Assembly (NCBI GenBank): GCA_022925895.1
Contig: JAKSYS010000071.1
Span: forward strand, 80,535 to 144,534
Direction: 5' to 3'
Source of the DNA: Fragilaria crotonensis
Taxonomy: Eukaryota; Bacillariophyta; Fragilariophyceae; Fragilariales; Fragilariaceae
DNA: 64,000 nt
Each line of letters begins with the position of its first letter. Position 1 is the stretch's first letter. The notes beneath the pieces were generated by a model that worked only from the letters and a program-made list of their open reading frames with translations, was not told where the DNA came from and ran no database searches. A program made the translations under genes and the position numbers. Of the stretch, positions 4,393 to 31,900 are shown in pieces.

Positions 4393-4501
4393 CTTTTGCA
4401 CCCAGCCGAGTTGTGTGGTAACCACTTCAAGTGCTGGCTCCTTATAACTCAAGGATGCACCATTTTAACGCGTTACCACTCAACTCGTCTGGGTGCAAAA
4501 G
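4393..4501. mobile_element. 109-bp inverted-repeat MITE-like element
   Basis: The sequence beginning CTTTTGCACCCAG recurs in inverted orientation ending CTGGGTGCAAAAG. The wider arms (4390-4422 and 4472-4504) pair at about 31 of 33 positions around a 49-bp spacer. TA dinucleotides flank both ends (4391-4392, 4502-4503), which fits a Tc1/mariner-type TA target duplication, although TA is only two bases. No coding capacity. Confidence 0.5.
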
Positions 4502-4616
4502 TAGAAGCACTTTAAGTTACTTAGGTTTTTCAATTTCTTCTTTTTACTTAGAGGTGTTCGCGACCGTTACACGGCGCGCACTTTCGTAAATGCCGCCTCT
4601 GGTCGCTATTGTGCAT

Positions 4617-4805
4617 AGATGCATACTGCATGCATACTGCATACTGCATACTGCATACTCTGGGGCTCCGGGGAGTAGTATTTATCACTCCTACTAGCTC
4701 GTAGCCCGAACTCCCTTTGCATATCATATGTCATATGTACCATACCTGGTACCTGGTACTAGTTACTAGTACCATACTCCCATCTCCCATCTCCCATCTC
4801 CCATC
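4617..4805. repeat. Short tandem repeats (GCATACT; CCCATCT)
   Basis: Several tandem copies of GCATACT lie around 4620-4660. About four copies of the 7-mer CCCATCT lie around 4777-4805. Between them are nested palindromic words such as ACCTGGTACC and ACTAGTTACTAGT. Confidence 0.75.
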
Positions 4806-5279
4806 CTGCATACTCCGATACAGTCATCATATATCATATCATACATGCATGTAGCACGCATTGGCGTGTCTGTGTGCAACTCCAACTCTGATTTTGTGAC
4901 TTTTGACATTTTCGACCAGAATTCACATTCCTCATGCACGAATATATGGAACGCCGAACGCCTTGAAAAAAAACGATACTCTGAGTAGACGTACGTAGGC
5001 GTATATTCATGATGACATCAACAGACGCAAGCCCATCCAGAATGTGTCGTTAAAGTCAAAAACAATTCAAGAGAGGCATGTGGCATGTCAGACGTTTTTC
5101 CTCTCACACTGGAATTGGCAGATAGGCAGGGAAGAGTTGGGTTCGATTGAACTACTGGTAGAGGGGAAGCATGTGCGAATAAACCTTGCTCCTACTCTCA
5201 GTTCCAAGCTCCCACCCCTCAGAAATCTGCTCTACTTCATCATCTCTCCGCTTCGTTTGAGGCGATAAACCGAAGGACC

Positions 5280-8200
5280 ATGCCGACGGTCCACGATTCG
5301 TTTTCAGAGTGTTCATCAGGCTGTTCTTCGTTTGATACGTTCGAGAGGAATCGAGAGCTTTCACCTTCCGCTGGTGAATCAACCAAAAGTCTTGTTTCGG
5401 TTGCTTCGTCGGCGTCAGAGAGTTCCATTCTAGTCGACGATGAATATGATGAAGATTTCGATGCTGTGGAGAGCCGACGGAGGCAAGCTGACGCACACGA
5501 AAATGTAACACCTTTGAAATCGTTTTTCGTCGCAAGCCCTCAAAATCGATCACCGTTCGACCGGATACTTGACTTTTTCCAAATTGACGACAATAGCTCT
5601 CTGCACAGCACCAGTTTGAGTCAGTCGCCCTCGGAGTACGTCAAGCCGCCATCGTCCGACACCAAACCGCCAGCAGAGCATGCGAAACACCCTTGGGGCA
5701 CGCAACGCCATCACGACAAGGGTCCCGGCGATCATGCTGAGACATGGGATGCCCGCGATGATCCATCGACGAGAGACGAATCGCCAAGTGAGACACGAAC
5801 GATCAACCCAAAAACGGAGGGGGGACTCCGATCCATTCTGCTTCCATCAAGGATTACCAAAGACAGTGATGCACCTTGGGATGGAGATGACCGTGACACG
5901 GACAACTCCCGATTCCCTTTTGACGATTCACTTGATTCGGCCGACTCCTCGGCCAACTTTTCTCCGTCGTGGAGAAAGGTAACTTGGCCGAGGTATGCTT
6001 CTGCAAGTTTAGCTCCACCAAGTCATTCCAAGCGAACAGCCGAGTCAATCTCGTTGCCAACAACCAAACCCGCCTCACCTAGCCCCGAGAAGCGCAGAGT
6101 ACATTTTAAATTCGAAGCGATGCATGAAGACGATGTAACATGGAAATCTACAAATCAGAAGGGATACAACGTTGAACCAATACATCAAGGGGCCGAGGAG
6201 ACCTGCTCCTCGATGGGGGGCTCACCATTGGCGAATTTACCGAAAATACTTGATGTGACGGGAAATGCATTATTGGAAGACCCATCCACAATCGCGTCTT
6301 CTAGAATGCTCTTCGAAGACCCCCCTGAGTCGACTCATAGATTTGATCCGACAACTGGTTCGCCTTTCGAGAGCGAAGCGAGAGTTGCCAAGGTGCAGAG
6401 TGAGCATCGGCCTATGGCGCGCGATACTCCCAGTCATAGCGAGAGAGTCAAACAAAGAAGGTTAGGGCGCTCCATGAAAACAAAAGAGGATGTGCTCGCA
6501 CAATTTAGAAAGAAGCCGAAGAAGGCATTGGCGTTTGAGAAATCAACAGCAAAAAAGGACATGACAAATCAGCATTCCACATCATTCCCAGCAAACCTCG
6601 ACAACCCAACAAATGTCTCAACAGCACCATCGTCGTCATCATCTCTGGATGAGAGCCTGGACTCGGTAAGGTCCAGCAGTGTTCCCTTGCATGATCTCTG
6701 CACTAAAGCCAAAACGTCAGGCGACCGAAGTTGGGGTGATGCAGCCATTTTGCTGTCAAGGCAGCCTCACCTCGCCATGACGTTGGAAAACGGGTGGACT
6801 CCACTCCACGTGAGTTGTCTTGGAACCTTTGCTCCGGCCGACTTTTTTGTGCGGGCTCTGTTGATGGCTGCTCCTGAAGCAACCCAGGTGCTTGACAACG
6901 GAGGTAGACTGCCGCTCCACCTTCTTGCGGCAACGTCTGCAGATCCTGATATCATGCAGATGTTGGTGGACGAGTATCCGTGTGCCATCACTGAGTACGA
7001 CGACAAGGGAATGCTTCCCCTTCACCGTCTCATCAAAAACGATTCCATCCATTTGACCCTTCACCAAGTGCGCATTCTTCTTGGTCAAACAATCAAGGTT
7101 GCACATAATGGTCGCAATGAGAGAGTCTCAAGGCGTCGAGGCGAGCACCTTAACCTTAGTTTCCAGGAAGTCAACGAGCTGGTGTATAGGGACGAGCAGC
7201 AGTCTGGGCGTGTTGGGAATATCCATGCGGAAGAAATTCAGGAATCTTTGAGACGCTTGTCTAGATGGAAGGCAAAACGAAATGGTAACGATGGCGTGGC
7301 AGCCACGACGACCGACAGTCGCCTACTATCCAGTCTGAATCCAGCTGCATTGCCTTCGTCGTCTTCTGGGCAGTTGGCATTGCATATGGCAGCGTCTCGT
7401 AACTTTCTATCAAGTAACTCTGACGACGGAATAACGTCGTCGCTTGACCTGGACAAAGGAAGGATTGCTGTATGTGGTCGAACAGAAATATTGCGCGTTC
7501 TCATCGCGGCAAATCCGGCCGCCTTAATTGGAAGAGATAGCAATGGTAGAACGCCGCTTCTTGTCGCAATGTGCTGTCAAGATTTCCTTCCTGATCGGGA
7601 CACGGTCGAGCTTTTGCTTGGCCGGAACACCGCTGGATTTGAATCACCACCTCGTTGGGTTGAGAATATGGAATTCCATAAGGCGCAAGACAGTCGATTT
7701 AGCAATCCGGCCATGATAATTACCAACGACATGCATCAAACGCCACTCCATATTGCGGCGGAACAAATGACATCCAACATTGGTGTTTTGGCCGCTATCT
7801 ACGAAGCCTACCCGGGTGCCGTTCACGTTCAGGACGTGCGTGGTCGAACACCGTTACATTTGGCCTTGGACAATTTTCAGAGTCTTGCACTGGATCCCAA
7901 GGCGTTTGCTTTGCTGTTGACGGATCGGGTAGCGCAAACAAAAGATGACGAGGGAATGACCCCGCTTGATCGTTTCGTCGAGCATTTGGATAGACTTTCT
8001 CCAGTTAAACCGGAGTCCCACACCTGCGATACCTCGCCGGAGGATGTCTATAAACTATTCTTTCAGGAGTCCTTTGTTCCGAATGCTTTGTTTTCCGGAA
8101 ATGATTCTGCTCTTCTTTTGCGGCGGCTGAGGAAGTTTCCGCGTTGGCTTAGAAGACTTGCCCTTTCTTCAGGATTCGTGCAAGACAAGATTCATGAAAA

Positions 8201-20470: not shown

Positions 20471-21700
20471 GGCCATTGTGTCCCCTACTGTTTACCATGT
20501 CACAAAGTGGTGCATCATCATTCTCTGACATGATCGATCCGGATTCATCTGATATACAAATCTATGCGCACTCTATGATATGCTTTGTCACGACTGTAGT
20601 TAAGACTTTGTTATCATTGTTTTTCATCTTATCCTTGTGTTCTTGTTAGTATTGTTGTATCGATTGAGATTAAACAATTCGCCCATACATTCGTTCTTGA
20701 CTGCACGAACGAAGTTCTCATGTTCATATGAAAGAATGTGAATCAGGTATGTACAGTGTCCAGCAGGTACTGGGTGTGGGACTTACATACTTGGAGAAAT
20801 AAGGATAAAAACCTTGACTACCAGGTTCCATACTGAAGATTCTTGGACTTCACGGTGTCACACAGCCACAAATACACGCACCCACAAACATATAGGCTAC
20901 TAGTCACAATTTCATTCTTCAACACATTCCAACAGCAAGGTATCAATGCAACAAAAGTATGTGCAGTATGATTCCCACCTTTTCAAGTGAACGGACCAAC
21001 TGCACCAAGGGAACTCAAAGGAGGGCCCATCCTGTGAAAGTCCTCATTATGGAATGTGGTCCTCAAGGTTGTCAAGATGTTGAGACTGAGGTGGAGTATC
21101 AACAGAAAGACGAGTACCTTGATGCTGACGACATGTGTGAATGTTACATAGCTACCCTGTGTGAAGAAGAGGCAATGGAGCATCTCTAACCTAGTAATTC
21201 TAGGTGGTGCCGTGAGATAAGTGGAATGAAATTCGTGTTTGCGATGCAATCATGTCGTCTCTTCATGCAGACTAGTAATCACCGCCGCGTACACCAAATT
21301 GCCGCCCGCGACCATGTATGCTGGAGTTCTGGACGACATCAGTCCTAGTCAAGGCAACTTATCATTGAAGTGCACACCACCATGTCATTGCAAGCTAGCG
21401 CACTGATGTCATTAAGGGTAGTACTGTATGATGCTAACGTTGTTGATAGCGGATTCTATTACACAAGATACGCACATATGCTTTACATCTCCTGGATGCC
21501 TATTTCTGTTCTCTTTGTTGTCCTTCATCTCTTTTTTGAATTGTGCTGTGGATGTCCAGTTTGCTTAGCACTCGTGCTGGTGATAACAACAATTACTTGC
21601 CATTTGTCATGATGGCGCAGTGACATCGATGAATGAGATGAGATCGTTGACATGCTGCGAGGTATGACGGTATGACGTTAGGCACTCGGAGAACTCCCCA
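20471..21700. other. Intergenic, no clear gene
   Basis: Between the copia remains and the tyrosine-recombinase element there is only a short acidic frame at 20959-21189 (ending MCECYIATLCEEEAMEHL) that I do not recognise. Parts may be copia LTR (from about 20643), but no second copy was found. Otherwise nothing supportable. Confidence 0.3.
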
Positions 21701-21864
21701 CAGTACCTGGTGTTTCTTTACCCGTTATGCGCCTACCTCCATGCTAAGCTTGGTCCCAAGAAGACGGCTCCCGGATATCCGTTGCCCGCGTCAGCGACTC
21801 CACACGGCGGGCAAGCCGACGACGTGATTGCTAACCCCCAAGGGTTCCTCACTCGCCAGGACAA

Positions 21865-22089
21865 TTGGCAGGTCTTCTTGGACCGTGCCGCGGACGCTCC
21901 ATCCCCAATATGTGTTGTCGCTACCATCTCAACGGGAAGTGTGTGCGATCCTGTAATTACAGTGATTCACACATTCCATTGACCTCGGAGCAGAAGACAG
22001 CCGGTGGTGCTTGGGTTGCCGCCTGTCGCTCACGAATGCACAAGCCCGAATCACGACGGCAGCCAACGCCTCAAAGAAGCCTAAATTAG
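21865..22089 (+). pseudogene. Gag-like zinc-knuckle remnant
   Basis: Reads CCRYHLNGKCVRSCNYSDSH, a C-x-x-x-H/C-rich knuckle like that of retroelement Gag proteins, followed by a basic tail. An overlapping frame (21710-21982) supplies the upstream part, so the gag has a frameshift here. Its place before reverse transcriptase fits gag of the tyrosine-recombinase element. Confidence 0.55.
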
Positions 22090-22152
22090 TAGGACAACGT
22101 AATTCGTAGCTCGCCGCTTTGCCCGCTCATTGTTCGCCCGCCGCCCGGCTTC

Positions 22153-24222
22153 ATGCCTCGCGATCGCCCGACAAACCGCTGTCGGTGTCACTGCCCAGCC
22201 CCACCCGCACTGCGTCGCCTGTCGCTTCTCGACCGTCTCGTACACCGCCGTCGGTGTCACCGCCCACCGGCGCCACTCGCACCTCGTGCACAACACCGCC
22301 CCCCCACGGGCACGCCACACGCCACCCACCCGACTAAGTACATTACACACCACCTCATCCTCGTCTATCGTTCCTACTCCCCGTCGCCGTGTCCCGCGCA
22401 AACCATTCCCACCTCTGGTTTCGGTTGCCTTAGGCCACTGCTTTGTTGCGCTATCACCGCCCACACCGGCACCCCCACCCAGCACCCGTCCGAATTCCGT
22501 TTCGAATGGTTGCTACTCGCCGCCGCTCACAACGCGTTGGTACTGCGTCATTTCCATTACGATATCGGCCGTGCCCTTCGTGCCCAACCGTTCTCCACCC
22601 TCACCCCGGGCTCCGAGTTCCGGTCCCCTCATCTCCTTGCGCCGCCGCTCGCGCGTCATCCCTTCTGGCCCCGTTTCCTCGAACGCATCACTGTCGCCGC
22701 TCAGTATCCGCTTGCGCCCATTCTCAACGCCGATCGCATCCTCCATGTCACCGCTAGTAGTACCCTGGCTTGTGGCAATCACAAATCGGCCCGGGGCCTT
22801 GAACCCAGACTAATTGAGATGTTGAAAGACAAAGTGAAAAAGGGATTATGGTAGCTTCCCCTCCGACAGACGTGGCGATGGAGATACCGCATCGCGAGGT
22901 GCTTGCCCCACTGGGTATGGTTGTCCAGTCGACGATTGGTGAAGACGGTTCTCGAGAGACCAAACACAGCCTCACTCATGACCAGTCATTCAACTCCGCC
23001 AAAGGCACCAGATGGAGTGCTGTAAATGACAGAGTAGATGCGCAACAGCAGCTGACCCCAGCCAGATTTGTTTGATTCCTACATGTTGTCTGTTACCTTC
23101 GATGGAGGTTCCCAGACGAGAGACTCCTCCTAACCAAAGTTGATTGCAAATCGGCTTATTGCAAAATTCATTTGCAACCATTGACCCAGCAAACTCTTGC
23201 ACCTCCATTGCGGGCATGATGCTGATGGCGCTTTGCATGACGTTTGGAACCCTTCCCTGTGGAGCGATGTTTCGAAAGTGATTGCCGACCTGGCAAACGA
23301 TCTCGTAAGACAGATGGACTGGGATCCAATCAGCGTGTGCGCTCCTCCACAACAGCACCTTCTTGAATCCCCAAGGGCATTGGACAACGACAAAGGGTTT
23401 GTAGACGAGTCGGACGCGTTCGCGCCTGCCTTCGAGGAAATGTCGGTGTGGTGCTACCCGGCCCCCTCCAGCGATTGCTCTCCTCGGTTCGAGTGTTACC
23501 TCGACGACCTTTTCGGAGTGTTCCGAGAAATCAATTCAACCAGAGCATCAGCCGCGGTGCCACTTGCGCTTCATTTGGTTGGCCGGCCGGTCGAAGAAGG
23601 AATCGAGGAGTCATTTCCCCGAGATAACCTCCTCGCCGTGTTTCTCGCCGAGGCGCGACCTTCGGAGCGGAAGGTGATCCTCGGTTGGGTCATCAACACG
23701 AGGGCTCCCACCCTTTCTCTCCCCGCCGATAAGCACTGCACCTGGGTAGATGGTGACCTCTGCACGCTGAGACGGGGGTCGCCAGGTTGGAGTGCCAGCT
23801 CGAAGATGCTTGAGCGAGTCGACCGTCGGACAATTAAACCACGGTGGTGCCTATGGATATCCCCAACGCACGACATTTCCTAGGTCGTCTCTACCGCGCC
23901 AGTGAGCGAGCCAAAGCTGTCGGTTTGGTGAAGTTGTCTGATGCTCAGGTGGACGACGTCATCTTGTGGGAAAAGTTTCTCCTCAACAATGCCGTCGAGG
24001 GCATCTCGCTAAATAGGATCGTGTGTCGCTGGCCGACTCTCGGGGATGAGTGCCCTCTACACCTAGCAAACGCTCGCACGTTGGCCTCCTACCTCACGGA
24101 GCACAAAATCCCTCACCATGTATCCCCATTTGTTTCCGGGAAAAGAAAATTCAGTTGCGGACGCACTCTCTCGCAATTTTCACCTCACCGACACCAAATT
24201 GGCTGACGTTGAAGTTGTTTGA
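22153..24222 (+). pseudogene. Reverse transcriptase/RNase H of the YR retroelement
   Basis: 22153-22854 is an open frame whose 3' half reads SARGLEPRLIEMLKDKVKKG, the typical start of this RT type. Frames then alternate: APLGMVVQSTIGEDG near 22905, then 23197-23883 with the catalytic YLDD at 23497-23508 (CYLDDLFGVF). 23844-24206 reads PNARHFLGRLYRASERAKAV, the RT thumb and connection. HLFPGKENSVADALSRNFHL near 24125-24185 is the usual end of RNase H in such elements. At least four shifts and stops break it. The last segment shares its frame with the recombinase and is separated from it only by the TGA at 24220-24222. Confidence 0.75.
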
Positions 24223-25452
24223 GCTTTTGTCACCACAACTTCCTCACTCCTTCCAGATCATCCCTTTGCCAGAAACAATCACTACTTGCGTTGGAAATAT
24301 GCTGCGATTGCTGGCCAAGATGCAGCAATTACCGATGGAACCCGCTCTCAGCGCACTCGGAGCTGGGAGCGGTACTTGGGTTTCCTCGACGCCATCGGCC
24401 ATCGTCACGACCCATACCTCGAAAGCCTCGACCGAGCGGAACAGATCGACTTGTTCTCCTGCTTCGCAGCCGCCGTTCAGGAAGGGTTGTCGGTCACCAA
24501 GGACGCCGGACGCGTTGCGGGAACTGGCCTTGAACGGCAGGCAAGCACAGTTTGTGCCACCCTTGACGGTGTGGCACAGGTCTTTCGGGTTAACAAACTT
24601 AGCAGCCCGGTGCATGACTCAAGAGGACAACTCGAACCCCTTCTGGCCACCCAGTTCAAATGTTATGCTCACAACAATCTTGAGACCGCCCAGCAACAAG
24701 CGGTACCGGCAGCCGTGGTATCAATTGCATCGCACATGATCGGCACGAATCTGGGAGAGGCGATTGGACAGCTCATAGTTACGGCGTTCGTCTTCTTCGC
24801 AATGCGTTCGTGCGAGTACTCAACAGTACTGGGAAACCGAAGAACTATACCAATTCACTTGGGGGACGTGGAGTTCAGGCGAGACGGCCGAACACTAAGA
24901 AGTAGGGACTTGTCGGCTTTGATGGTGGCAGACACTGTCTCGGTGGTGTATCGGACGCAAAAGAACGGCAACTGGGGAACTATCGTGACTCAGCACAGGA
25001 CGGTGATGAACGAGGCAGCAGAGCCCCTCTGCCCGGTCAGAGCCCTCGCACATCTAGTAGTGGCACGAATCGCAAACTACGAAGTCGGTAAGACGAAGTG
25101 GAAAAACCTTTCGGAACGGCCTATCAACTTTGTGCGGGGAGAACACACGTCCGAGTTCACGGAAATCACGTCAGCGCAGGTACTGTGTCACCTGCGGGCC
25201 GCAGTAGTCCAGTATGGCGATGACAGATTAGGATTCCCTCCGAAGAAGCTGGGAACCCACTCGCTCAGATCGAGAGCAGCGACAGCAATGTTGATCATAG
25301 CAGGAGTTCCGGTGGAAACGATAAAACTGATTGGACGGTGGAGAGGTGACGCATTCCTGCGATACATCAGGTCCCAGGTGCAACAATTTACCAAGGAAAT
25401 TGCAACGGAGATGACGACAAGCCCAGATATCGTTACAATTGGACAAGCATAG
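24223..25452 (+). CDS. Tyrosine recombinase domain of retroelement pol
   Basis: An uninterrupted frame of about 409 codons follows the in-frame TGA at 24220-24222. Its first in-frame ATG is only at 24736, so it was probably made as part of a longer pol product. The catalytic set is visible: Arg in FFAMRSCEY (about 24805), H-x-x-R in GTHSLRSRA (His 25258-25260), the Trp/His position in GRWRGDAF, and Tyr in LRYIR (about 25360). This is the integrase of DIRS-type elements, which splices circular cDNA into the genome by a nicked DNA-tyrosine intermediate rather than by DDE chemistry. All key residues remain even though the upstream RT is broken, so decay is recent, or the domain has been spared by chance. 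Confidence 0.8.
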   Translation, partial: AFVTTTSSLLPDHPFARNNHYLRWKYAAIAGQDAAITDGTRSQRTRSWERYLGFLDAIGHRHDPYLESLDRAEQIDLFSCFAAAVQEGLSVTKDAGRVAGTGLERQASTVCATLDGVAQVFRVNKLSSPVHDSRGQLEPLLATQFKCYAHNNLETAQQQAVPAAVVSIASHMIGTNLGEAIGQLIVTAFVFFAMRSCEYSTVLGNRRTIPIHLGDVEFRRDGRTLRSRDLSALMVADTVSVVYRTQKNGNWGTIVTQHRTVMNEAAEPLCPVRALAHLVVARIANYEVGKTKWKNLSERPINFVRGEHTSEFTEITSAQVLCHLRAAVVQYGDDRLGFPPKKLGTHSLRSRAATAMLIIAGVPVETIKLIGRWRGDAFLRYIRSQVQQFTKEIATEMTTSPDIVTIGQA

Positions 25453-25476
25453 ACCGAGCAGGAGCAGAAGAAAGTG

Positions 25477-25623
25477 GCTCGCAGACAATACAGAAACATC
25501 TGGGAGACTGGAGGAAAGTGAGAGTACTAGGGCTCGATCCCGAAGCCAACATCGGACTAGACTACTTGGCTACCGACTAGGAAGGAGCCCGGAGGTAACG
25601 TACATTACTCGAAGCTGGCTTCG
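25477..25623. repeat. Direct repeat copy 1 (B1-like)
   Basis: Begins GCTCGCAGACAATACAGAAA, 25 bp after the recombinase stop, and runs to GAAGCTGGCTTCG. It matches 25787-25940 closely except for scattered changes and a 7-bp length difference near the end. Confidence 0.9.
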
Positions 25624-25786
25624 TGGGATGTACGAGAACGCAGGCCGACTGAACTGACAGACGGACAACTCGCAAAACGAATAAATTCGCGCCAAGTACA
25701 TTTTACATTGGAACGAATTTGACGAAGACAAAGACCGCGAGCCGAGTTACCTAGTAGATAGTTATTAATTACCCACCCACCACCCT

Positions 25787-25940
25787 GCTCGCAGACAATA
25801 CAGAAACATCTGGGAGAAGGGAGGAAAGTGAGATTACTAGGGCACAATCCCGAAGCCAACACCGGACTAGGCTACTAGGCTACCGACTAGGAAGGAGCTC
25901 GGAGGTAACGTACATGACACATGACTCGAAGCTACCTTCG
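25787..25940. repeat. Direct repeat copy 2 (B2-like)
   Basis: Second copy of the repeat at 25477-25623, starting with the same GCTCGCAGACAATACAGAAA. It is 310 bp downstream and separated by a unique block (25624-25786). It carries about 7 extra bases before CGAAGCT. It probably marks the 3' end of the element. Confidence 0.9.
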
Positions 25941-26350
25941 ACTTAGTAGTGACGGTGTCAGACAGCACCTCAGCCCTCAGCACGTCTTCTGAATCTCGCA
26001 CGATTCCCATGAATTCGCGGAGCGAATCTGAGTCGGGCTTGATGAGTAGGCACGACTACTCGACTGTCGGTACCGGTACACCGGTGTAGTACCTTGTACA
26101 GGGGAGGTCCGGCAAAATCACGTTTCTTCTCGTAGCTTCTACATGCAATTACTACCAAGGAGAGTTGCGTGGCCGGACCTTCCCCGTATGGTATGAGTTT
26201 ACGTAGCAATGGTTGTGGAGTGCGCCCCGGTTTACGAAACCCTCTTGTTCGCTCCTCAAACATCGAACTGATGAACCATAAAAACAAAAACAAAACCTTG
26301 ATAACCGACCTTTGCAAGGATTACATAACCTTATCATACACCATTTATCA
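25941..26350. other. Intergenic, upstream of DUF6824 gene
   Basis: No gene seen. The stretch includes a GTACCGGTAC palindrome around 26069 and presumably the promoter and 5' UTR of the gene starting at 26351. Confidence 0.4.
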
Positions 26351-27274
26351 ATGGGAATCAAAACCCCTACTCCTCCAAGTGACGAATCCATGATCCTTCC
26401 ATCATTGACCTGGTCGGCCCTGATGGAGACTACTTGTCAGGATGAAACAGAACGCGTTTCCAGCGGCGCATGGTTAATGAAGCTCAAGAATGAGATTGAC
26501 GAACCTGATCAGCCTCATCCATCTATATTTGACAATGACAACGACCTGGTAGGCATTGATCGACAGTCTTCAGACAAATCTCGCGAGTATGCGATTGCCC
26601 ATGTTGGTGCATCCGAATCTGCAGCAGGGGCTGCTGACACCCATCGGGTTCGGCTCACGTCGACGGCGACAACCTTCAGCGCTGTGGAACTCATTCCCTT
26701 TGTGGACATCCTCGATCGAGAGCAATCTCGTGAAGTCCCTTACCGGGAATCATCGCTCTTAGTAGCTGCGAATGTCGTCGTTCCCCACGAGAGGGGCCCC
26801 GCTACTCTTGATGCTACTACTAGTGTTACTGGTACTGCAGCTACTGACGAGGAGCAGGCGTCGCGGAAACGCAAAGTCACCTCGAACAAACCGGTGAAAA
26901 GCAGGAAGCGAGCTCTGGAGGAACCTCTCACACAAAGGGCGCCTTCACGAAAATACCGCTACGTTGGGAAGGAGGACATTCGCGATGATGACATTTTGAA
27001 AGGACGTGGAGGACTGTCTAATCATCACGTGGGCAACAGAAAGTTTCGCAAGATAATTGCAGATATGAAGGGGACGTACAAGAAAATGCACCTTAAGACG
27101 GACAAGACAGCCCTCTCCAGAGGTATTGTGGAGTATATCCAAGCAAAGGGTGGTCGGTTTCTCATCAAGACAACCAATGGTCAGGTCCGCTGGAGAGTCA
27201 TGACCAAGGAGGAATCGCAAAAGAAGACCAGTCAAGCCCTGCGAGAAACCAAAAAAGTCAAGTGGACACTTTGA
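26351..27274 (+). CDS. DUF6824-type domain protein
   Basis: 307 residues from the first in-frame ATG (26351); frame-open sequence upstream of it has no ATG. Residues 1-170 are acidic and Ser/Thr-rich. A basic stretch (KRKVTSNKPVKSRKRALEE, about 175-195) could serve in nuclear import. The C-terminal domain (about 212-300) starts DDDILKGRGGLSNHHVGNRK, with the signature D-x-L-x-GRGG...N...H.GN. It continues through KTALSRGIVEYIQAKGGRFL and ends with KKTSQALRE. This is the DUF6824 pattern found in large numbers in diatoms. Function is not established; a nuclear, DNA-related role is a guess from the basic motif. Single exon, close to no other gene. Confidence 0.8.
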   Translation: MGIKTPTPPSDESMILPSLTWSALMETTCQDETERVSSGAWLMKLKNEIDEPDQPHPSIFDNDNDLVGIDRQSSDKSREYAIAHVGASESAAGAADTHRVRLTSTATTFSAVELIPFVDILDREQSREVPYRESSLLVAANVVVPHERGPATLDATTSVTGTAATDEEQASRKRKVTSNKPVKSRKRALEEPLTQRAPSRKYRYVGKEDIRDDDILKGRGGLSNHHVGNRKFRKIIADMKGTYKKMHLKTDKTALSRGIVEYIQAKGGRFLIKTTNGQVRWRVMTKEESQKKTSQALRETKKVKWTL

Positions 27275-28922
27275 CGTATGACAGCCCTACCCTGGAAAGG
27301 ACTCGGGGAGCCTATGCGCTGCGTATCACGATCACTTTTTCCTTCTTCAAGGCCGACGATGCTTTCGCTTTCGCGAAGTTCTAACGTCGGACTTTTACAT
27401 ACATCATTCCTCGAAACAGCTGTGGCGCGCGATGCATGTCGTCGTGTCGCGTTTCGACTCAAGAGCATTTATAAAAACCATACTGAGAACTAACAAGGAG
27501 CTTGCCTGATTTAACCAAAACTAGATATTTATGTCACACTTGAACGTCATGTGCCTGCTTTTGCCCTCTCCTTTGTACCAAATGATGAAGGCCACAAAGT
27601 GCAGATACGTACTATGACCGCAAATATACGATGACGAACAGGTCCACGGAGTGATTACTCGCCGACGTATGTTAGGCGGCCTCCCTCGCTAAATGCCTCA
27701 TAATGATGGAGACATCGCTGGCAACTCATCTTACTCTGAGAAGAAACATGAAACGATGCGTAATAACAAGCCAACATTACTTGGTCGTATACTGTTAATG
27801 ATGGCCTCATTCCTCCCTTCACCCGTCCTGGCCCTACAGCCTACTACTCCGGCGACTTGAGGTAGTAGGTGGTATAGAGCATAGTGCTTTGAAGTGGGTT
27901 GCTGCATGACGGTAGTGCTGCCCATACTAGCCAGAGTAGAGGACTGCTCTGAAATCGGAAACCAAAAGTTGTCACCATGAACCACGCTCCAAATACTCGG
28001 ACTCGGAGTACACGGTAACAGTACCAAGTTACAATACAGCACCCTGTACTGTTTGTGAGCATGGAACTCGTTTCTGCCGGCACGTTGTGTCGAATGTATT
28101 CCTCGCCTCAACAAGCAAATCGGTGTTTGACAATTTGATCTGGTTTGGGTCAATTGAAGGGAAAGATGATTACTGCAGGCCTGTTTCTGATCATGTCATG
28201 CTGATATCATACATGTAGTTCATGGGAAGCACTTGCACTAGACAGGCAGCCATTGGGTGACATGGCGTTAACAAGAAGGAAGAACTTGATTTTATGAAAG
28301 AGACACAAAGGAGCTTGGAGTGCAGCACTTGCTGGTTATAAGTATGGCTGATACAAGGTACAAGGTACAAGTTCTCAAATGTCGCATCTCTTCGAGTACT
28401 TTGTGGCTTACGTATATTCTGTACTCGACCCTACGGAAACATCCTGCGTTATCATATCTACAATGCATACGAGAGTAACTATGAAAAATGCGAAATATGA
28501 AATATATGGGATCTCCTTATTTATGATTTTTGATCATTGGGCGATCATTGGCAAGAAGTTTTGGAGTAGAGTACAAGTACGATGTACGTCTGATGAGTAT
28601 GAACCAACAAAGGGCGCGGCGGCGCGGTTCGAACTCAAAATTCAAATTGATATCGAGTTATCGACACCTGAACCACGAAAGGCTCGCATCCCAGACTGCC
28701 AGAAAACAAGGGGTTCGTTCCGCGCCATCTCAACGAATCGTCAAGATTTTGAGCGCAGCAGCATCAGGTGTTGTACTCTGAGGTCGACCTACCAGCCTTG
28801 GCCATTGTTAAGTGCTTCGCTTTGCCGTTTGCCTTCCATTTTGTACACCGAGCCCCGCGAAGCAACATAGACACACATCGGTTTCTTCCTCTGTGGGATT
28901 TTACACGATTGATCGACTACCC
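27275..28922. other. Intergenic between DUF6824 and LRR genes
   Basis: 1.6 kb without a supportable gene. Short frames on both strands lack motifs. It should contain the DUF6824 3' UTR and the promoter of the LRR gene. Confidence 0.4.
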
Positions 28923-31900
28923 ATGAGATTAACCTCCTTCGCAGCTCAATTGCTGCTTATCCTCGAGAGGTCCAATGCAGATTACCTTGGAGACGAGTCT
29001 GTTTTGAAGCGTCTCTTTGATGTTGCAGATGGACTTCGATGGACTAATCAGACCAACTGGATGACTGGGGAATCTGTTTGTACATGGTTTGGCATAACAT
29101 GCGACGATTCCGACCACGTCACGGAGATTTCCTTATCCAACAACAATCTTGTCGGCCGTCTACCCAAGCACATGTATCGAATGGAATACTTGACCAAAGT
29201 AAATGTCAAAGATAATTCCCTTCGCGATGCAGATTTTATTGGCTTTGCCGAAGCGAAAGATGCGGATGGCGAATCCAAATTGGAAATCTTCGACATTGCT
29301 GGAAACGCCTTGACCAGTTTGACTGGGATCGGTGACGCACCCACTACTTTGAGGGAGTTGCACTTGACCGAAAACATGTTGCAAGGTCCAATGCCGACGG
29401 AATTGTTCAAATTGTCAATGATTAACGTCATGTATTTGAGTTACAATCAATTCACTGGAACCTTGCCAACAGAAGTTGGACAACTGAAATTCGTCGAGAG
29501 ATTCTATCTGTACGGGAATGACTTGACGGGAACTATTCCCAGTGAAATTGGTTTGTTGAAGAAGGCGGAAATCTTCACGCTGGCTGAAAATAGATTTGGT
29601 GGTTCGCTTCCTAGCCATGTCTCAGAAATGATCAATCTTAAAACTTTTTCAGCTCACAACCATGAACTGAAGAAGGGAAAGCTAACCGGTTCCCTGCCAT
29701 CATTTCACAAATCGCCCTTCTTGTCGGAGCTGAAATTAGATGGCAATGCGATCGAGGGCTCAATCCCGACTGACTTCATGCACAGTTCGAATGTCACTTC
29801 CTCGTTGGTCACGATTGGCCTTTCAAGTAATCTTCTGACAGGCAGTCTTCCTACGTCGCTGTTGAAGTTCAGTTCCCTCGTTCTGGATGTCACAGGAAAC
29901 CAAATCTCGGATGTTGACCCATTATTCTGTCAACAGGGCGCCTGGATGTCTGGTCTCGTGGAGGAATTCGGATGTGATGCTCTGTTGTGTCCCAAGAAGA
30001 CCTGGAGCATCGAAGGTCGAGACACAGAAAAATCAGATTGTACGGAATGCGATTCGGCGCAATTTTTTGGATCGACCGAGTGCGCATCTGCCCCAGTCCT
30101 GCCGACGCCTGATTGGTTGGCGTTGGCCAAGTTATACCAAGCAACTAACGGTGAGCATTGGAACATCTCAACTGGATGGGAGGTGTTGGACGATGTGTTC
30201 GACACTACCGACTGGGAAGAAACGAATGCCACAAGCTTTTTTGTTTGCACTTGGCATGGTGTCGACTGTAGCAATGGGAAGGTCCAGGGGGTGAATTTGA
30301 AGAACAATGGTTTGGTCGGTACCCTGCCTACTGAAATCTTCAACCTTGAAGGTCTAAAGGAGTTGGATCTTTCTCTCAACACCATCGAGCTTGATGCTGT
30401 TCTCGGTTTGTCCGCGATCGCTAATGCCAAGGACTTGCTGCAAATCAATTTATCGGGCACCAAAATCTCGACCATTGCTGGCATTAGCGAAGCGCCGGCA
30501 TTGACCTCAGTCTATCTCGACAGCCTCGAGCTGCCAGCTGGACCCTTTCCAACGGAACTGCTTGCTCTTACAGGATTGCACCTCTTGCATATGCAGTTTT
30601 CCGGTTTGACAGGCTACCTTCCAACCGAGATTGGGGCGTTGAATAAATTGAAAACGTGAGTATATTCCAATTCAACGCAATTCACTTCGTTACCCGTCTT
30701 GTTCGAAAGGAGTGAGTCTAAGCCTTTTCTTCCGTCCCCAGTTTGTTCATCTATAACAATGACCTCACCGGTTCACTTCCGAGTGAACTTGGTCTACTGA
30801 CTGACCTGACATCATTAGAGCTATCTGAGAACAGCTTCTCAGGAGAATTGCCGACCCACTTAGACGGGATGACCAGCCTGAAAGTTCTACACATTCAGCA
30901 ATCTAAGGACCCTGCACTTTCCGGGAACCTTCCTGCCTTCACAAATTATCCAAACCTGCAACAGCTCAATTTGGACAACAACGCTTTTACGGGTTCCATC
31001 CCTAAAAAATTTTTGCAGGGCATTCAGGATAAATCGAAGCCCGTATTCGTCAGTCTGGCGCACAATCAGTTGGATGGTACCGTTCCCTCGGAGCTCGACG
31101 ACTTTACTGAACTCGATATTCGACTGGAAGGCAACAAAATTTCTGGTATTGCGACGGAATTGTGCGATAACTCCGAGTGGATGAATGGAAAAGTTGGCGA
31201 GCTCGGCGATGATTGCGATGCCATTTTGTGTCCTCCAAAGTCCTACAATGTGTATGGCAAGCTTGGATCCGGCAGGTACGGAAAATGCGAAGTATGTGAC
31301 AGCGCAGAATTCTTTGGCAGTGTGCAGTGCGAAGGTGAGGTAAATCTTGAGAAGACCATCCTTGACACCCTGTTCCAGGCGACCGGGGGCACCCACTGGA
31401 CGCGCAGTGACAATTGGACCGAAGCCGGAGTTCCCATTTGCTACAGAGAAGGGATAATTTGTACCGGCGGTGACTTGGACGCTGGTGTCACGGAAATCGA
31501 ACTTTCCGCCAACAACCTTAATGGTGACATTCCAGGGAAAATATTTGATCTACCGAAGATCAAGCTCTTGAGCTTCGCCGACAACCAAGTCGACCTTTCG
31601 TTTGAAAAGATTGGAGACGCCGAGACTTTAGTTGTTTTGAAGCTCTCGAATACGAACCTTCGTTCCCTCGCTGGCATAGGCGGTGCGTCGAGTGCCCTAC
31701 GGGAGCTGCACGTCGCAGGAAACCAACTGAACGGTACCATTCCACCTGAACTTTATGACCTTTCCAATCTCCAATACTTGTTTATGGGCAATAACCTCCT
31801 CAGCGGAACCATTGCCAGCGAGATCGGTCAGATGGTTGCGTTGAAAGAGCTTTCTCTTTCCAACAACATGTTAACAGGTCAGCTTCCCTCCGACATTGGC

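Follow-up and report, generated by a model that had tools for sequence, protein, structure and literature searches.

A stretch of 64,000 nucleotides from the diatom Fragilaria crotonensis (contig JAKSYS010000071.1, G000:C690:80535-144534 in our numbering; hereafter, the window) contains, on the forward strand at 21709..25940, a dead, old member of an abundant family of tyrosine recombinase (YR) retrotransposons with Ngaro-type ends. With a probability of roughly 0.88, this is a 5'-truncated copy of a 6.6-6.9 kb element that consists of A1, a gag-like/reverse transcriptase (RT)/RNase H (RH) region, a recombinase gene that overlaps this region in the -1 frame, and a B1-A2-B2 end in which B1 and B2 are direct repeats and A1 matches the start of A2. 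This reading is carried by the anatomy of the repeats, the boundaries of the element, one insertion that left no target duplication, and an overlap in which both frames show signs of constraint. The initial annotation of the window had identified a retroelement with a split-direct-repeat end and, in addition, proposed an RT-RH-YR fusion; the fusion falls, to be replaced by an out-of-frame, apparently double-coded overlap.

We searched the genome (62.1 Mb, 881 contigs) with the recombinase and obtained at least 115 matches, a lower bound that counts pieces, given that 102 of the 318 candidates were scored and that broken copies may yield more than one match. Thirty loci from this search were fetched (L009, the window itself, to L038; L010 is the copy on contig C187), and 22 of these, including the window, carry a B1-A2-B2 end downstream of the recombinase. 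Because the same unit recurs in many loci, its arrangement in the window is not due to chance. No such end was found in the remaining eight (L014, L018, L019, L023, L026, L027, L033 and L037), of which L019 has a different repeat in its flank. The repeats form two size classes, a short one (9 loci; B of 140-177 bp, A2 of 126-163 bp) and a long one (13 loci; B of 294-311 bp, A2 of 232-244 bp), and across the loci with repeats, B1 ends in ...TTCG and A2 opens with TGG. The identity between B1 and B2 is 98.1-100% in 20 of the 22 loci, the exceptions being L010 (88.5%) and the window (87.7%). An inverted repeat, CGAAG..CTTCG, closes both B1 and B2 right before the junction (25608-25623 and 25925-25940 in the window), and the long-repeat group has its own version, CGGAA..TTTCG, at the same position; a recombinase site and an RNA hairpin are candidate roles.

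Relatives with A1 at the 5' end, the proposed check on the split-direct-repeat reading, were sought in the upstream pieces of nine copies, and five were found, in support of that reading. The identity of A1 to the start of A2 is 99.1% in C24, 100% in C597, 95.3% in C187, 98.7% in C131 and 100% in C87. The border of A1 coincides with the B1/A2 junction in C24, C597 and C187 and lies a few bases off in C131 and C87, where the offset of the repeat borders from TTCG/TGG can be put down to chance matches. Inverted termini of the classical DIRS kind, which had been named as grounds for abandoning the initial annotation, were found neither in the window nor in the pieces of the nine copies; the inverted pairs seen were one in C24, outside the element, and one of 27 bases in C383, inside the element. 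The ends are of the Ngaro/PAT/VIPER type and are not inverted.

The exact boundaries come from the C24 copy, which measures 6,654 bp from A1 to B2 (G000:C24:69473-76126). Its joined flanks are present without a break along their full 300 bases at 26 other places (92-99% identity), and in all six empty sites read, the insertion is absent to the base, with an identical junction, no target duplication and no base loss. Insertion without target-site duplication, a characteristic of the DIRS order, is thereby documented for one insertion. The C24 element lies inside a repeat with 26 listed copies (L048-L053 and 20 more places, 92-99%). From flank to flank, the C597, C187 and C131 copies span 6,710 bp, 6,593 bp and ~6.9 kb, respectively. 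Neither the flanks of C187 nor those of C131 led to an empty site, and a search with those of C597 returned only the same insertion again, in C383. Indeed, the C383 (L016/L041) and C597 (L017/L042) copies have identical 150-base flanks on both sides on two contigs, with ~2 kb more between the shared flanks in C383; the pair represents either a segment that was duplicated or two haplotypes that were both assembled. Similarly, L024 and L036 have a common 3' flank. With L016/L017 and L024/L036 each counted once, and L021 excluded for its B2 being cut short, the B2 end could be read in 19 distinct insertions. In all of these, the first host base behind TTCG is A or T (A in 7 of 7 insertions with short repeats; A in 4 and T in 8 with long repeats), which may reflect a target preference; in L070, a distant relative described below, it is A, after ...GTCG. 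Under the published Ngaro/PAT model, the element RNA would be reverse transcribed, A2, located between B1 and B2, would bridge the ends to yield a circle with a B/A junction, and the recombinase would insert this circle at ...TTCG/TGG, leaving no target duplication.

The copy in the window is a decayed homologue of the C187 copy (G000:C187:67923-74515, 6,593 bp), to which 21709-25941 is 75-83% identical. Missing from it, compared to C187, are the first ~2 kb of the gag-like part, A1 included, and a search for A1 across the whole window found none. What remains starts with a remnant of the gag-like and N-terminal RT part (21709..23068), with many insertions and deletions relative to C187, followed by an RT remnant in disrupted frames (23068..23883), with the YLDD box at 23497-23508 inside a frame that is open over 23185-23883. 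The RNase H remnant (23838..24222) keeps its C-terminal end, terminated by a TGA at 24220-24222; it is only an ending because 246 nt of the RNase H of the nearest relative, C187, are missing, with the gap at 24039/24040. Both the YLDD box and the RNase H ending are located where they had initially been placed. Next come the recombinase frame (24223..25452; 409 codons, including the open run to the stop, with the Y codon at 25363-25365), B1 (25477..25623, ending in ...CTTCG), A2 (25624..25786, starting with TGGGA) and B2 (25787..25940, followed by A at 25941 as the first host base). Thus, the two direct repeats of 147-154 bp around a unique 163-bp block were correctly described, and the block is delimited exactly. 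B1 and B2 are 87.7% identical over 154 columns of a gapped alignment, or 92% over 132 nt without gaps. If the two were near-identical at insertion, as in the model outlined in excerpts of PMC6681497, this divergence would make the window copy one of the oldest in the family.

The RT-RH proteins of the relatives align over 638 residues of L015. Four residues, D361, E396, D425 and D477, are invariant in a set of six sequences that includes the 30%-identical L070, and we take them to be the RNase H catalytic set. In C24, a single frame extends from immediately downstream of A1 as far as the stop of RT-RH, interrupted by one TGA (position 2470 of the oriented upstream piece). This stop is not shared by C597, C383, C187 and C131, yet each of these has other breaks. 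The gag-like part includes a C-C-C-H-like cluster. Scans of viral contigs, one each with the RT-RH and YR alignments, found no relative. A second, distant group, ~30% identical to the main one in both RT and recombinase, is represented by L070 (G000:C1:220800-228400) and L071 (G000:C427:95500-103000). These have FIDD in place of YLDD and Lys or Arg in place of the catalytic His of the recombinase; L070 carries 200-bp direct repeats, 343 bp apart and 100% identical, and a search for A1 in this locus found none.

The frames of the RNase H end and of the N-terminal part of the recombinase could be compared in the 27 of the 30 loci that contain both, the three left unscored being L012, L019 and L031. 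The recombinase starts in the -1 frame in 19 loci, in the +1 frame in five (L010, L016, L030, L032 and L037), and in the frame of the RNase H end in three (the window, L033 and L036); in L070 and L071, the catalytic part of the recombinase is in the -1 frame too. Further on, a second length change returns the catalytic part to the RNase H frame in L023, L025, L028, L032 and L034. These counts are best fitted by a -1 layout that was later altered by separate length changes.

The RT-RH and recombinase frames overlap by ~360 nt, and in L070, both are open over 823 nt (4484-5306). In six short-repeat copies, the rhythm of substitutions shifts from third positions of the RT frame to those of the recombinase frame at ~1560-1605 (L015 coordinates), whereas the RT frame remains open on to 1918. 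Beyond the overlap, 379 of 595 comparisons (64%) at fourfold sites of the recombinase frame show a difference, compared to 39 of 175 (22%) in 1560-1640 and 75 of 374 (20%) in 1740-1918; at those of the RT frame, 671 of 1073 comparisons (63%) do so before the overlap and 17-26% within it. By this comparison, two of the three stretches of the overlap appear to be double coding. Furthermore, the RT frame is open across the overlap in all nine copies tested (with a 2-nt gap near the end in L023), where random synonymous recombinase codons would keep it open with a probability of 0.007-0.13 per copy, values that are not independent given that the nine copies are related. The alternative is that the conservation reflects a nucleotide-level signal, such as an RNA structure or a regulatory site in the region coding for the recombinase N-terminus. 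Part of the overlap is conserved at first, second and third codon positions alike, and the RT-frame stop sits in a recombinase stretch that is itself conserved, as such a signal would have it. However, the openness of the RT frame in nine of nine related copies speaks against this explanation, and so does the RT frame of L015 compared to L020 and L022, which aligns up to L015 position 1759, inside the overlap, with 48% over the matched stretch. We therefore consider a purely nucleotide-level signal rather unlikely.

The frame counts also bear on the proposal that the element encodes a true single-frame RT-RH-YR polyprotein, of which the window copy would be a slightly broken example. The observation behind it is accurate for the window, where the RNase H end is followed, beyond the single TGA, by the recombinase in the same frame, and open frames join RT/RH to the catalytic part of the recombinase in L023, L028 and L034, and RT to it in L029. 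Moreover, in fungal Ngaro elements, the YR is either in the RT-RH frame or frameshifted, according to excerpts of PMC3783388. However, the -1 position prevails in the frame counts given above, and the joined copies switch frames at differing places: L029 does so upstream of the RNase H end, L028 and L034 inside the overlap, and L023 at the 2-nt gap near its end, and relative to C187, the window copy has +4 at 24121 and +4 at 24202. Such differing places are expected of separate length changes. The single-frame polyprotein is largely refuted and, in our estimate, very improbable.

Three routes are conceivable for the production of a recombinase in the -1 frame. In nine of the ten copies in which the conserved start of the recombinase was located, there is no Met between the opening of the frame and this start, the exception being L017, with two Met far upstream, within the RNase H-coding stretch; the recombinase frames of L070 and L071 likewise have no Met before the start. 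The recombinase would then do without its own AUG: translation may shift by -1 out of the RT-RH frame or begin at a non-AUG codon, or the RNA may be spliced. We searched 12 sequences for slippery heptamers (X XXY YYZ) in the RT phase and found in-phase ones in six. Only the window, L020 and L022 share one in position (CCCTTTG, 93-96 nt upstream of the conserved motif); the other nine sequences lack it there.

The recombinase of the window has its catalytic residues at the conserved columns (R195, K247, H346, R349, W373 and Y381), bearing out the original assignment of the R, HxxR and Y residues. Among 18 aligned recombinases, there is no variation at R195, K247 and R349 and hardly any at H346 and W373; in a set of 11 sequences that includes the far group, R195, K247, R349, W373 and Y381 are invariant, and H346 is not. 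The Pfam family PF00589 is matched by 15 of the 18 at E <= 0.1 (best, 5.8e-5), with no Pfam match for the window protein up to an E of 1, and a PDB profile search yielded only marginal matches to Cre (four sequences, E of 0.73-0.81). An AlphaFold2 model of the window recombinase alone had a mean pLDDT of 38.3 and was left out of the fold searches. The frame had been called intact. It is open over 24223-25452, as stated, but it has in-frame length changes, with extra residues in conserved stretches, one near the catalytic Arg, and its dN/dS relative to C187, 0.29, resembles that of the broken RT part (0.23); the RNase H remnant has 0.10 and 22093-22851 has 0.37. By these ratios, the recombinase frame shows no constraint beyond that of the broken parts. 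Accordingly, we rejected the possibility that the recombinase is a domesticated host gene, its frame preserved by selection within a decaying element. That the frame is open despite the divergence of B1 and B2, and that, after 24319, the length differences from C187, aligned within the recombinase frame, are multiples of three, would be compatible with domestication; the absence of YR-specific constraint, the residues inserted in conserved stretches and the conserved start without an upstream Met make it a long shot. As for a Crypton-type recombinase that merely adjoins an RT, with CryptonS reported from one diatom (excerpts of PMC3212892), its likelihood is negligible, because RT-RH, recombinase and B1-A2-B2 are found together time and again as a single unit that has A1 at its 5' end, and the empty sites of C24 show this unit inserted whole, so that the chance adjacency the initial annotation had allowed for does not apply.

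Several observations weigh against the layout favored here, an element with Ngaro-type ends and a -1 recombinase overlapping RT-RH. Empty sites were read for a single insertion, that in C24; in eight of the 27 loci, the recombinase starts in the +1 frame or in that of the RNase H end; none of the slippery heptamers is common to all 12 sequences; and the middle of the overlap, 1640-1740, is nearly unconstrained at recombinase-frame fourfold sites (80 of 153, or 52%, differing). A1 was not found in four of the nine upstream pieces (C383, C543, C144 and C364). The C383 piece does not reach as far as the 5' end, the left flank of that copy being located at 142565-142714. In C543 (L044/L012, G000:C543:8500-17158), an RT with a YVDD box, which we presume to be Copia-like, is found directly upstream of the recombinase end, in the place expected for the element's own RT-RH, and L012 yielded no RNase H end belonging to the element. 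Finally, no RT or RNase H model was matched in any library searched. Pfam gave PGDH_C (0.21) and Herpes_capsid (0.056) for RT-RH, PHROGs an unnamed family in three of 10 (0.01), NCBIfam no match, and the PDB profile search an oxoacyl reductase (0.006) and kinases, with neither RT nor RNase H. The identity of RT and RNase H therefore rests on conserved residues and on the order of the motifs.

Compared to known systems (the published accounts are cited from excerpts), the family is close in layout to Ngaro-like elements of zebrafish, fungi, Cafeteria burkhardae and Ectocarpus. It shares with these the A1-[ORFs]-B1-A2-B2 order of open reading frames (ORFs) and repeats, with the internal repeats downstream of the YR, a length of 6-7 kb, stramenopile hosts and the lack of a detectable methyltransferase (PMC8547959, PMC4157794, PMC12477816); Ngaro-type ends, the absence of a methyltransferase and stramenopile hosts have thus already been published. 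RT, RNase H and YR are joined in one mobile unit, with RT and RNase H assigned by motifs and conserved residues only. A1 at the 5' end with B1-A2-B2 downstream of the YR is seen in the relatives, whereas the window copy lacks A1. The methyltransferase is absent in the sense that no Pfam match was detected in 10 RT-RH members or in the scanned frames of L070 and L071. Unlike Ngaro elements, which usually, not absolutely, have no RT-RH/YR overlap (PMC3266345), this family has one; in addition, its RT is unmatched by Pfam, whereas the Cafeteria Ngaro RT matches PF00078, and its gag-like part and RT are in one frame in C24, bar the one stop. The long pol/YR overlap, with the catalytic part of the YR encoded beyond it, resembles DIRS1-like elements (PMC3266345), but their inverted terminal repeats and internal complementary region were seen in neither the window nor the pieces of the nine copies, and no methyltransferase was matched. 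Compared by layout, PAT-like elements (Pat1, Toc, Kangaroo) share the split direct repeats; their group has a methyltransferase domain (PMC4157794), and no Pfam match to one was detected here. VIPER/TATE elements have the same A1 and B1-A2-B2 ends and no methyltransferase (PMC6681497, PMC4157794) but reside in kinetoplastids. An RNase H with affinity to hepadnaviruses is a further mark of the VIPER-like kind. CryptonS likewise bring a tyrosine recombinase to stramenopiles, including a diatom, but are DNA transposons with 5- or 6-bp terminal direct repeats (PMC3212892) and no RT unit, whereas the YR here belongs to a unit with an RT.

Among the open-licence papers listed by our searches, judged by title and the start of the abstract, none reports a DIRS-order retrotransposon in diatoms, which is no proof of absence from print; the excerpts of PMC2806351 use DIRS as a probe and reference, and those of PMC3155517 mention Dictyostelium DIRS-1. 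The features that appear unusual here are the conservation of both frames over most of the 360-nt overlap and a recombinase frame that, in nine of ten copies, has no Met before its conserved start. It is possible, albeit short of an even chance, that these elements form a separate diatom lineage of YR retrotransposons that combines Ngaro-type ends with a DIRS1-style overlap, in which the last ~120 codons of gag-RT-RNase H double as the N-terminal domain of the recombinase, and the AUG-less recombinase is produced by a shift that extends the polyprotein in the -1 frame. YR retrotransposons are a comparatively understudied kind of retroelement. The dozens of long copies of this family, with their nearly identical repeats and clean empty sites, define the ends and one insertion event exactly and make the double-coding zone measurable. 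Should the overlap prove ancestral, the published overview draws the line between the DIRS1-like and the Ngaro-like layout too sharply. Beyond the element, the adjoining host frames in the window encode a protein with DUF6824 (26282-27274) and a leucine-rich-repeat protein (28812-30659).

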